Position numbers and translations under genes: made by a program
Part shown: positions 2,206 to 4,397 of the stretch, in pieces
How the letters are laid out: each line of letters opens with the position of its first letter
How positions within the stretch are numbered: the first letter of the stretch is position 1
Assembly (NCBI GenBank): GCA_002368605.1
Contig: DFEB01000008.1
Span: forward strand, 1-49,349
Direction of reading: 5' to 3'
DNA length: 49,349 nt
From: Treponema sp. UBA3813
Lineage (GTDB): Bacteria; Spirochaetota; Spirochaetia; Treponematales; Treponemataceae
Notes under the pieces: model-generated
What the model was told of the DNA's origin: nothing
The model's input: only the letters and a program-made list of their open reading frames with translations
The model's database searches: none

Positions 2206-2691
2206 TTACTGATACTCACAATATTTTTTTTCAAGCAATGGCAGGTTGCAGCACCGCTGTTTTATAATTTTATCGTGCTCCGACAAATCATTTTCATTTT
2301 CAAAAATCATTTTTCTGAGGGTTTCTGCAGTTCTCAAAATAGCACTTTCATCAGCCTTTATGTAATTGTACTGGTTCTGAAGCAAACGGCGGTATTTGAC
2401 ATCGGTGATATTCGCAATGTCTATTTCAATTAGGGCGGAAGCCAGAACAGGAATCATATTGTTGAAATTTATCGCACCGTAAATTCCATTGTTTATTTTC
2501 CTGAAATCCTTCCCGTTTTTCATTTTCTTGTGCTTTAGTTTCGGTGAAGTAAAAGGTGCATAATATTTTATGGTCTCGATCTCAAGCACAACCCCGACAT
2601 ACGGACGGCTTTCATTTTTGTTGTCTGGAACTTTCTGGTCAAACTGACGCAAAAATGTAATGAAATCGTCTTTTATGTGATAAAACTTCAT
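2206..2691 (-). CDS. toxN: Type III toxin-antitoxin toxin, ToxN/AbiQ family endoribonuclease
   Basis: A 161-residue protein recognised as ToxN/AbiQ from its N-terminus MKFYHIKDDFITFLRQFD, the RPYVGVVLEI strand, the APFTSPKLKHKKMKN segment with DFRKI, and the GAINFNNMIPV strand. Family knowledge: ToxN is an endoribonuclease held inactive in a triangular complex by short repeat RNAs cut from its own upstream transcript, and many members act in phage abortive infection. The ATG at 2691 is chosen over the upstream TTG (2709) because it begins the canonical MKFY, has GAGAAG just upstream, and the TTG lies inside the terminator. Upstream on the same strand are terminator, three RNA repeats and promoter, in the canonical order. 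It appears intact. Its target and anti-phage activity are inferred from the family only. Confidence 0.93.
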   Translation of the reverse strand: MKFYHIKDDFITFLRQFDQKVPDNKNESRPYVGVVLEIETIKYYAPFTSPKLKHKKMKNGKDFRKINNGIYGAINFNNMIPVLASALIEIDIANITDVKYRRLLQNQYNYIKADESAILRTAETLRKMIFENENDLSEHDKIIKQRCCNLPLLEKKYCEYQ

Positions 2692-2700
2692 ATTCTTCTC

Positions 2701-2732
2701 AAAAAACAAAAGGAGCCATTTCCGACTCCTTT
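2701..2732 (-). terminator. Intrinsic terminator between antitoxin RNA and toxN
   Basis: A 7-bp stem, 2726-2732 with 2709-2715 (AAAGGAG/CTCCTTT on the minus strand), is followed by TG and six T residues (2706-2701). In type III systems a leaky terminator at this position lets most transcripts end after the RNA repeats and only a few read into the toxin, setting the antitoxin:toxin ratio. The toxN ATG lies 10 bases past the T-run. Confidence 0.88.
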
Positions 2733-2734
2733 AT

Positions 2735-2860
2735 AAAAACTTGCGTTTTTGGGTTTTCACTTATTGGCAGAAACTCGCCGCTTTTTTAGCATTCCACTTT
2801 ATGGCAGGAATTCACCGCTTTTTTAGGGCTTCGTAAATGTGGTAGAAGCTCACCGTGACT
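2735..2860 (-). ncRNA. toxI: ToxI-type antitoxin RNA, three 37-38 nt repeats
   Basis: Three tandem units are seen. The motif GGCAG/GGTAG recurs at 2766, 2803 and 2841 (steps of 37 and 38), each followed by A-rich bases and CNCCG. On the minus strand the two toxN-proximal units share CTAAAAAAGCGG. The promoter-proximal unit is diverged and lacks the A-run. Family knowledge: the precursor is cut by ToxN into single repeats that fold as pseudoknots and bind the toxin; cutting at A-rich sites fits the A6 runs. The exact 5' and 3' ends are estimates from the promoter and terminator. Confidence 0.85.
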
Positions 2861-2862
2861 TA

Positions 2863-2891
2863 AATTTAGCAAGAATTCTGTTTGCCGTCAA
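2863..2891 (-). promoter_or_regulatory. Promoter of the toxI-toxN locus
   Basis: On the minus strand TTGACG (2891-2886) and TAAATT (2868-2863) are separated by exactly 17 bases. Transcription would begin near 2856, at the first antitoxin repeat. Confidence 0.8.
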
Positions 2892-2934: not shown

Positions 2935-3285
2935 CTAATTTTTTTGTCCTAAATATAACTTTCCGCACAATAGCACAAAATCTATCAAATAAACTATACA
3001 CAGAAACTTAAGCGGTATGCTGATAAGCATTTCATTAAGCACATTTATTTTTGATATTAAAAAAATGATGCTTGTATAAAACGCAAAAATATATGACAGG
3101 ATTATTACGATTATTGTAAATTTTATAATCATATCATTCTGCCAATAATATGTACCTAAAATTTTCCCCATTAAACAACTCTTACCTTTTTTGTGTTTAC
3201 TGTTATCAAGAGCAAATAAAAAAAATTGAGTCATAAGTCTGTTTAATAGAAATATAGTCAAAAAATATACCATCTGCTTACTCAT
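2935..3285 (-). CDS. Small membrane protein, candidate Rhs immunity protein
   Basis: A 116-residue protein with about three hydrophobic helices (residues 5-25, 52-78 and 88-110) and basic loops; no family recognised. Its ATG (3285) overlaps the stop of the upstream Rhs tail by 8 bases (ATGAGTAA), so translation is coupled. Position and topology suggest an integral-membrane immunity protein, which by analogy would counter a membrane-acting toxin tip. That role is inference from context. The base composition is AT-rich, like the other island cargo. Confidence 0.6.
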   Translation of the reverse strand: MSKQMVYFLTIFLLNRLMTQFFLFALDNSKHKKGKSCLMGKILGTYYWQNDMIIKFTIIVIILSYIFAFYTSIIFLISKINVLNEMLISIPLKFLCIVYLIDFVLLCGKLYLGQKN

Positions 3286-4045
3286 CTTTCCAAAGCTCCT
3301 TTAATTCTGCTTCAGCCTTTTTGTAAATCTCTGCTCCTAAATTTATCGCAGAAGGAATTGTCCCTTTTAAAATAGCAACTACACTGTCTTTAGTAATTGA
3401 TTTTATACCATTTGTTTTAAAATAATACGCAAGAGCTTTACCAGTTTCCGATATTAAATCATTTCCAGATTTATATTTGAAAGCGTTACCCATTCTATGT
3501 AATAACTGCCTTGTAGAACTAGCCATTATGTGAGATGAATCTGCACCTTTACCACCAAGCCATCCTGCAGCACAACCTGTTACAAAAGACATTCCTAATT
3601 CAAGATAATCTGCATCAGATAGATTTTTATCCTCAAATACAAATTGGGTTACAGCATCTTGTGTTAATGAAATACATCCATTAACTAATACTTGACCTAC
3701 CAATCCAACACCGCTTGCAGCCAAACCTCCACTTATAGCACCACCAGCAGCGGCTAACAAAACTTTATTGCGATCTATTTTTCCATCTTTTGCATATTGT
3801 GTGGCAGCAGAAACTGCGGCAGCTACAGTACCGCCAATAGCGGCTCCTATTACAATATGTAAAAACCTTCCATCCGGATCCGTATACTTCACCGGATTAT
3901 TGGCCGCATAGTGATACAGATTCATGTTGACCGTATTAAACACACCACCCATGCCAGGCAGATTCTGGTTATATTTCTTTGCCTCCTCGTCTATTGGCGC
4001 TTTTGGGATGTATTCCCCAAGTGCGGGGTCAGTGGAAATCCACAT
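3278..4045 (-). CDS. Truncated Rhs tail with a different C-terminal tip
   Basis: A 255-residue Rhs C-terminus beginning at MWISTDPALGEY, with NLPGMGGVFNTVN and the DPDG boundary (about residues 56-59). After DPDG comes a Gly/Ala-rich hydrophobic segment that parallels the one in the 512-1981 protein, including a GK(V/I)D turn followed by a hydrophobic Gly-rich stretch. The last 120 residues are unique, partly hydrophobic, and unassigned. Upstream, the frame is closed by a TAG at about 4106-4108, and the preceding YYYGARYLDPKYS codons are separated from older Rhs sequence by a deletion junction. So the ATG at 4045 is the first usable start, and the product would lack nearly the whole Rhs shell. 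Either a silent cassette or a decaying gene. Confidence 0.65.
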   Translation of the reverse strand: MWISTDPALGEYIPKAPIDEEAKKYNQNLPGMGGVFNTVNMNLYHYAANNPVKYTDPDGRFLHIVIGAAIGGTVAAAVSAATQYAKDGKIDRNKVLLAAAGGAISGGLAASGVGLVGQVLVNGCISLTQDAVTQFVFEDKNLSDADYLELGMSFVTGCAAGWLGGKGADSSHIMASSTRQLLHRMGNAFKYKSGNDLISETGKALAYYFKTNGIKSITKDSVVAILKGTIPSAINLGAEIYKKAEAELKELWKDE

Positions 4046-4174
4046 TGAATATTTAGGATCTAAGTATCTAGCTCCATAATAATAATTCCCACGGCGGAAC
4101 GCAAGCTACCGCCGTAGATGTTGTTGCCGGGATCTGTGTGCAAAGTCCACATCTTGTTAAAATAAAGCGTCTCG
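4046..4174 (-). pseudogene. Rhs core remnant with internal deletion
   Basis: Minus-strand bases 4174-4109 encode SETLYFNKMWTLHTD and NNIYGG, matching residues 104-126 of the other Rhs tail. The reading then jumps to YYYGARYLDP (4083-4054), matching residues 220 onward, in another frame. About 94 residues are missing. The junction (4091-4115) carries a 7-bp inverted repeat, ACGGCGG/CCGCCGT. This is the decayed 5' extension of the gene at 3278-4045. Confidence 0.75.
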
Positions 4175-4397
4175 GAAAAATCTGTGATTTTTCCGCAGTC
4201 ATATCATTGCAAAAAATTCATCACCTTCTTTAATACATTTCACTTTACGCATAGGGAGCGACGGCGAAGCCGGCAAAAGTCGTGAGACGACTTTCTTCAC
4301 TTCGTTACGCGCGAGTCTCGGAAAAATCTGTGATTTTTCCGCAGTCATATTATTGCAAAATTCGCAATACCCGCTTTCAAATATTTCACTTTACGCA
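4169..4397. repeat. Imperfect duplication (offset 146 bp) with AAAAATC hairpins
   Basis: Bases 4169-4214 and 4315-4360 are identical at 45 of 46 positions, each with the perfect hairpin GGAAAAATC-TGT-GATTTTTCC. At the same 146-bp offset, 4237-4251 and 4383-4397 are again identical (ATTTCACTTTACGCA), with diverged sequence between. A further perfect 8-bp hairpin with loop GAG sits at 4276-4294. Together with 4083-4168 and 4398-4445 this fills the 363-bp gene-free stretch before ilvD. I see no ORF or tRNA in it. Confidence 0.85.

Follow-up and report, generated by a model that had tools for sequence, protein, structure and literature searches.

Type III toxin–antitoxin systems of the ToxIN kind are described, in the sections of the literature used here, as systems in which the toxin ToxN processes a repeat RNA, is caged by its units, and is freed when a phage shuts off host transcription (PMC5086642, PMC4627078, PMC8860590, PMC10853763). 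The families of these systems are told apart by toxin sequence, and the cleavage by ToxN and AbiQ is A-rich; the units of ToxI and antiQ are 34–36 nt long, with 2.8 repeats of 35 nt in antiQ (PMC5086642). In CptIN, whose toxin CptN is represented by the structure entry 4RMO, the antitoxin CptI forms a 45-nt pseudoknot with a one-base loop 1 and a long A-rich loop 2 (PMC4627078). Candidate ToxI RNAs upstream of ToxN have been described in Clostridiales and Leptotrichia (PMC8040213). For the Spirochaetota, a search of open papers combining type III toxin–antitoxin, ToxN, and Spirochaet found none, and no term starting with Spirochaet occurs anywhere in the 2016 review text.

A ToxIN Locus in Treponema

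The DNA analysed here (the window) is a 49,349-nucleotide stretch of Treponema sp. UBA3813 (GCA_002368605.1, contig DFEB01000008.1, positions 1 to 49,349, forward strand). Positions 2206–2891 hold a ToxIN locus on the minus strand, in the order promoter, three antitoxin units, terminator, and toxN, composed of the following features:

2863..2891, minus strand: predicted sigma-70-like promoter, TTGACG-17-TAAATT, with a TG before the -10 (consensus match)
2828..2854, minus strand: R1, predicted H-type pseudoknot, S1 GGUG/UACC, S2 GCUUC/GAAGC (pairing)
2819..2824, minus strand: A-tract separating R1 from R2, likely cut by ToxN (sequence)
2791..2816, minus strand: R2, predicted pseudoknot, S1 GGUG/UGCC, S2 AUUCC/GGAAU (pairing)
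2782..2787, minus strand: A-tract separating R2 from R3, likely cut by ToxN (sequence)
2755..2779, minus strand: R3, predicted pseudoknot, S1 GGCG/UGCC, S2 UUUC/GAAA (pairing)
2746..2750, minus strand: A-tract following R3, where the 3' end of this unit is likely processed (sequence)
2709..2732, minus strand: intrinsic terminator between antitoxin and toxin (scan and RNA fold)
2206..2691, minus strand: toxN, 161 aa, ToxN/AbiQ family endoribonuclease by profile, intact open reading frame

An earlier note on this DNA had proposed this canonical order, entirely on the minus strand, and both its coordinates and its order are correct. Judged from sequence, we are highly confident that this is a complete and probably working type III toxin–antitoxin locus of the ToxIN family. 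The toxin family, the operon order, the paired and covarying pseudoknot stems, and the intact toxin gene come from this analysis, while promoter use, read-through, cleavage sites, the ring, and phage abortion are the parts of this reading that we infer.

A consensus match to the claimed promoter, TTGACG-17-TAAATT, lies at 2891–2863 of the minus strand. The match is weak when taken alone, as the scan reports 10 such sites over 1.4 kb where shuffled sequence gives 5.3, but its position agrees, as it directly precedes unit 1, and so does a TATATT box found by eye at the matching place in six related loci (L052–L055, L034, and L134). Likewise, the claimed intrinsic terminator is borne out at 2732–2709, in its canonical place, and the RNA fold of 2700–2740 reaches −12.5 kcal/mol (z −3.96).

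The Toxin

The toxN product matches the Pfam family PF13958 (ToxN_toxin) at 2.1e-50, over profile positions 1–159 of 159, and the PADLOC AbiQ profile at 7.9e-43. Among PDB sequences, its best match is 2xd0 (8.7e-23), with similarity over the whole length, and the four matches up to E 1 are all ToxN or AbiQ entries; the solved AbiQ, 4glk, is a weaker sequence match (3.4e-08). NCBIfam profiles gave no match above cut-off for this protein. At the level of sequence profiles, the search that the earlier note had proposed as a check speaks in favour of a ToxN/AbiQ gene, through Pfam, PADLOC, and PDB alike.

The active-site residues reported for ToxN-Pa are Tyr29, Lys33, Thr52, Ser53, and Lys55 (PMC5086642). 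In the alignment with ToxN-Pa, the last three face T48, S49, and K51 of the window ToxN and Lys33 stands opposite R29, while Tyr29 falls in a gap and has no aligned partner.

The Antitoxin Units

The three units share one plan: the 5' arm of stem 2 lies inside a 4-bp stem 1 (GGYG with YRCC), a linker of 7–8 nt precedes the 3' partner arm, and loop 1 measures 1–2 nt in the window units. Their spacing of 38 and 37 nt bears out the three 37–38 nt repeats described previously. Identity among the three is 0.55–0.69, and they are too unlike to be reported by Tandem Repeats Finder. Rfam gave nothing in the window at the gathering score and four matches at E up to 10 (E 4.7–7.6), and RNAfold, which has no pseudoknot model, did not find the single units unusually stable (z −0.24, −0.05, and −0.78).

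Three spaced pseudoknot-capable sites are present in the locus, whereas 0 of 3000 dinucleotide-shuffled versions of 2700–2960 contain such a triple. One further loose triple of this kind elsewhere in the window (minus strand, 949) is taken for chance.

Stem 2 was examined across related loci in units chosen by the stem 1 pattern alone, which imposes the first three stem 1 pairs. The 81 regions, each extending at most 260 bases upstream from the toxin, comprised 79 of the 80 relative loci, the window, and L034; L071, which offers only toxin residues 55–161 at its edge, was excluded, and L134 stands outside both this test and the identity count given below. Matches spaced 33–42 nt apart were found in 33 of the 81 regions, yielding 72 distinct units, whereas 42 regions had none and six a single one. 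All four core stem 2 pairs are standard in 68 of these 72 units, against a mean of 11 (maximum 19) with shuffled 3' parts and a mean of 33 (maximum 42) with 3' parts dealt among the units. The fourth stem 1 pair, which the pattern leaves free, is standard in 63 of 72. The four units failing stem 2 belong to L066, L068, L110, and L116, and by eye the one in L068 is its terminator. The other 48 regions may hold different antitoxins, or none in view; in L075, L076, and L089, repeats of different sequence can be seen by eye.

Covariation is also apparent in other Treponema loci, where stem 2 of R2 reads AUUUC/GAAAU or AUCUC/GAGAU, changed on both sides. The H-type pseudoknot, for which the earlier note had suggested folding the repeats, fits the units by stem pairing and covariation.

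Unit Number and Fixed Order

Once the terminator matches in L068 and L073 are set aside by eye, 29 of the 33 array regions hold three units, four units being found in L063 and L116 and two in L068 and L070, with further units possible in L110, L116, and L123, where the first match comes close to the limit of the sequence read. Six of the array regions (L083, L084, L094, L097, L099, and L106) closely resemble L081 and each other. Since published arrays range from 2.8 to 5.6 repeats in the descriptions consulted (PMC5086642, PMC8860590), three units are common here rather than a rule.

Unit identity was compared in five Treponema loci (the window, L052, L053, L054, and L034); L055, whose units are those of L054, was omitted. 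Mean identity is 0.878 between units that hold the same position in two loci (30 pairs), whereas it is 0.687 inside one array (15 pairs) and 0.696 when both position and locus differ (60 pairs), and for 15 of 15 units the nearest one in another locus stands at the same position. L134, despite its broken toxin, carries these three units too and in unchanged order, 3 of 3 being nearest at the same position. In the Bacillota pair L058 and L064, whose units are mutually unlike as in the window, the tendency is similar but less clear-cut, as unit 1 of L058 resembles units 1 and 3 of L064 to the same degree. Unlike the window, L067–L070 carry identical or almost identical units, as do two of the three units of L062. 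As likeness at the same position exceeds likeness within an array, the units have not been homogenised by repeat exchange. This pattern is nevertheless expected from common descent alone and is no proof that the units do different jobs.

A stronger proposal would be that the pseudoknots are three fixed, non-interchangeable parts, such that each transcript supplies one set of R1, R2, and R3 to one ToxN3:ToxI3 ring; taken jointly, these statements are rather unlikely to hold. If they did, the unlikeness of the units would prevent the array from slipping to other lengths, and, more speculatively, a working mimic would be harder for a phage to acquire or expand by recombination. In phages that escape ToxIN, repeats resembling the antitoxin are expanded or recombined (PMC3475682). 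A locus whose units differ and keep their order lends itself, in any case, to testing whether ToxI units are equivalent.

Unlike units also occur in a group of near-identical Clostridium loci (L081, L083, L084, L094, L097, L099, and L106), six of the seven having a common order and L106 deviating in the second unit.

Relatives and Origin

A ToxN match was found in 69 of 195 genomes, the source included (68 over the cut-off), and in 0 of 14 control genomes. The subtype of the window is rarer: at 1e-30 it occurs in 3 of the 392 genomes searched from the phylum, again counting the source. Its nearest kin in the toxin tree are five other Treponema loci, L034 and L052–L055, with toxin identities of 75–82%. 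In this tree of 41 toxins, rooted at the midpoint and built without L134 and the partial L071 and L074, the window and these five form one clade (100/99), which sits inside a clade of 22 rows (99/99) whose other 16 rows are Bacillota by label or title, except L057 (titled only Bacterium). Eight rows of other Treponemataceae ToxNs fall in other clades. The nesting of the window clade among Bacillota ToxNs suggests a transfer from Bacillota, a direction that we infer from the tree. With this locus, Treponema gains a clearly marked ToxIN set whose place is among the ToxNs of Bacillota.

DNA similarity to the nearest kin ends at about 2896 and about 2203, that is, at the promoter and at the end of the toxin (2221–2896 for L052, 2291–2895 for L134, and up to 2203 for L071). 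Because similarity stops at these edges, the cassette seems to travel alone. In a scan of ten flanking frames around the relatives, L053 (on a contig shared with L033) adjoins a type I specificity subunit, a YhcG-type nuclease, an N6 methylase, and a PIN-domain gene, L055 (on a contig shared with L032) lies near a PIN-domain gene and an S41 peptidase, and L052 lies near a fucose isomerase; the single frame scanned beside L054 matches no family. A scan of viral contigs with the window ToxN found no relative.

Loci of this kind undergo decay in the group, and some related toxins are broken. The toxN of L034 carries near its start a short insertion with a repeated motif (about 9801 to about 9909), its antitoxin units being intact, and the toxin of L134 (genome G111) is broken into pieces with stops. 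The source genome itself holds a second, truncated ToxN match (L002, G000:C33:61971-62249), preceded by a possible single pseudoknot and by a hairpin with T after it.

The Rhs Setting

The earlier note had placed the locus between two Rhs toxin/immunity modules. Rhs pieces do lie on both sides, but they are truncated, both longer ones being without the N-terminal part of an Rhs protein:

512–2053: Rhs piece (57 bits against the Rhs core model for 512–1981; cut-off 32.5)
3278–4105: Rhs piece (3278–4045 scores 25 bits, or 33.5 with a longer frame; cut-off 32.5)
2–112: short stretch resembling the end of an Rhs core, by eye

A core fragment at 4060–4203 lies in another frame, which indicates that the second piece is broken upstream. 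The frame at 198–509, just above the DUF7674 cut-off (28.5 bits against 27), could be an immunity gene, and 2935–3285 matches no family above cut-off in Pfam, PADLOC, or NCBIfam. The source genome has 18 Rhs-core matches including the two of the window, most of them under the cut-off, and several stand in rows on its contigs 2, 27, and 47. Beside the first Rhs piece, a short dispersed repeat (1982–2048) recurs at 85–90% identity in L016, L024, and L029, which hold ToxN loci.

The Rhs flanks are right as a description of the place, but support for a shared accessory hotspot is weak. As similarity to kin stops at about 2896 and about 2203, the Rhs setting looks incidental. A tblastn search at 1e-4 found no Rhs core around L032–L034 and L052–L055, in stretches of 4 to 20 kb each. 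By eye, at least three further ToxN places lie within 5 kb of an Rhs core among the matches listed: G054:C90, G082:C8 (where the ToxN is a piece), and G109:C103 (where the Rhs match is under the cut-off). With so few such neighbours among the matches listed, and with similarity ending at the cassette edges, an Rhs-linked hotspot was left as weak. The first of these places, L021, has a ToxN of another subtype about 1 kb from the Rhs core.

Truncated Rhs pieces on either side, together with the low identity of the window units (0.55–0.69), would also agree with a type III locus in decay, a remnant in an accessory region whose units have drifted and are no longer all needed. The broken toxins of L034 and L134, the many short ToxN pieces, and the truncated second match in the source genome point the same way, and L134, in which the units are kept despite the broken toxin, warns that intact units alone are no proof of a working locus. 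However, stem pairing is kept in all three units of the window, stem 2 of R2 departs from that of its kin in both arms, the units resemble their same-position counterparts in other loci, and the toxin frame is intact, which makes decay very unlikely and favours a complete, probably working ToxIN locus.

Other ToxN Loci in Treponemataceae

Among other ToxNs of the Treponemataceae, twelve loci (L006–L009, L015, L016, L018, L020, and L022–L025) have an apparent single-pseudoknot antitoxin, lying between promoter and terminator, and no repeat array. The pattern is AAGG, followed by UCGCG, CCUU, and CGCGA; in L024 it reads UCGCA/UGCGA, changed on both sides. Searched for exactly, the pattern turns up a single time in each of 14 of the 195 genomes, and by eye a ToxN match adjoins it in 12 of these. 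In the parts of the literature searched, no type III antitoxin with a natural single unit was seen to be reported. An engineered single CptI repeat has been described as fully antitoxic (PMC4627078), and a single phage pseudo-ToxI as not fully antitoxic (PMC3475682). These apparent single-unit antitoxins would offer a test of the fewest pseudoknots that a natural type III system needs.

Another Treponema ToxN group (L010, L011, L013, and L030) has, by eye, three strongly unlike pseudoknot units per array, all three of which the pseudoknot script recovered only in L030.

Proposed Mechanism

By analogy, the window locus most likely works like other ToxIN systems, as it has the components that this requires, and each unit is followed by an A-tract. 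One promoter would give rise to a short RNA of three pseudoknots, and the terminator would let only a minority of transcripts reach toxN. ToxN is expected to cut this RNA at the A-tracts between the units and to stay bound to them, probably in a ring built from three copies each of ToxN and ToxI. Once transcription ceases, for example on phage infection, the short-lived RNA would be lost, and the freed ToxN would cut A-rich mRNA.

Comparison with Known Systems

CptIN has a 45-nt unit with a one-base loop 1 and a long A-rich loop 2; the window has a period of 37–38 nt and a linker of 7–8 nt, but its loop 1 is as short as 1–2 nt. That the locus is CptIN or TenpIN rather than ToxIN is extremely improbable, for although its loop 1 is short like the single base of CptI and a weak NCBIfam TenpIN match exists (E 0.037), the Pfam ToxN_toxin and PADLOC AbiQ matches are strong, 4RMO is absent from the PDB matches up to E 1, and the units are nearer in length to those of ToxI and antiQ (34–36 nt) than to that of CptI. 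The TenpIN model scores 14.3 bits, under its cut-off of 90.

AbiQ/antiQ, a Lactococcus system, resembles the locus in having about three repeats of similar length and in the match of its PADLOC profile to the toxin. The entries 2xd0 and 4ato, the ToxN of Pectobacterium atrosepticum and Bacillus thuringiensis, represent systems that share with the window the toxin family over its whole length and the succession of promoter (predicted in the window), tandem pseudoknot repeats, terminator, and toxin. The window differs from them in units that are about 69% alike within the array, in its spirochaete host, and in the truncated Rhs pieces on both sides. The Bacillota ToxN loci of Lachnospiraceae, Faecalibacterium, Ruminococcus, and others (L056, L058–L070, L072, and L073) have toxins 54–68% identical to that of the window and the same unit plan, with three units in 14 of 17 arrays when L057 is included. 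ToxIN is a known kind of phage defence, and the novelty of this locus is a Treponema member whose antitoxin RNAs differ from one another and stand in a fixed order.
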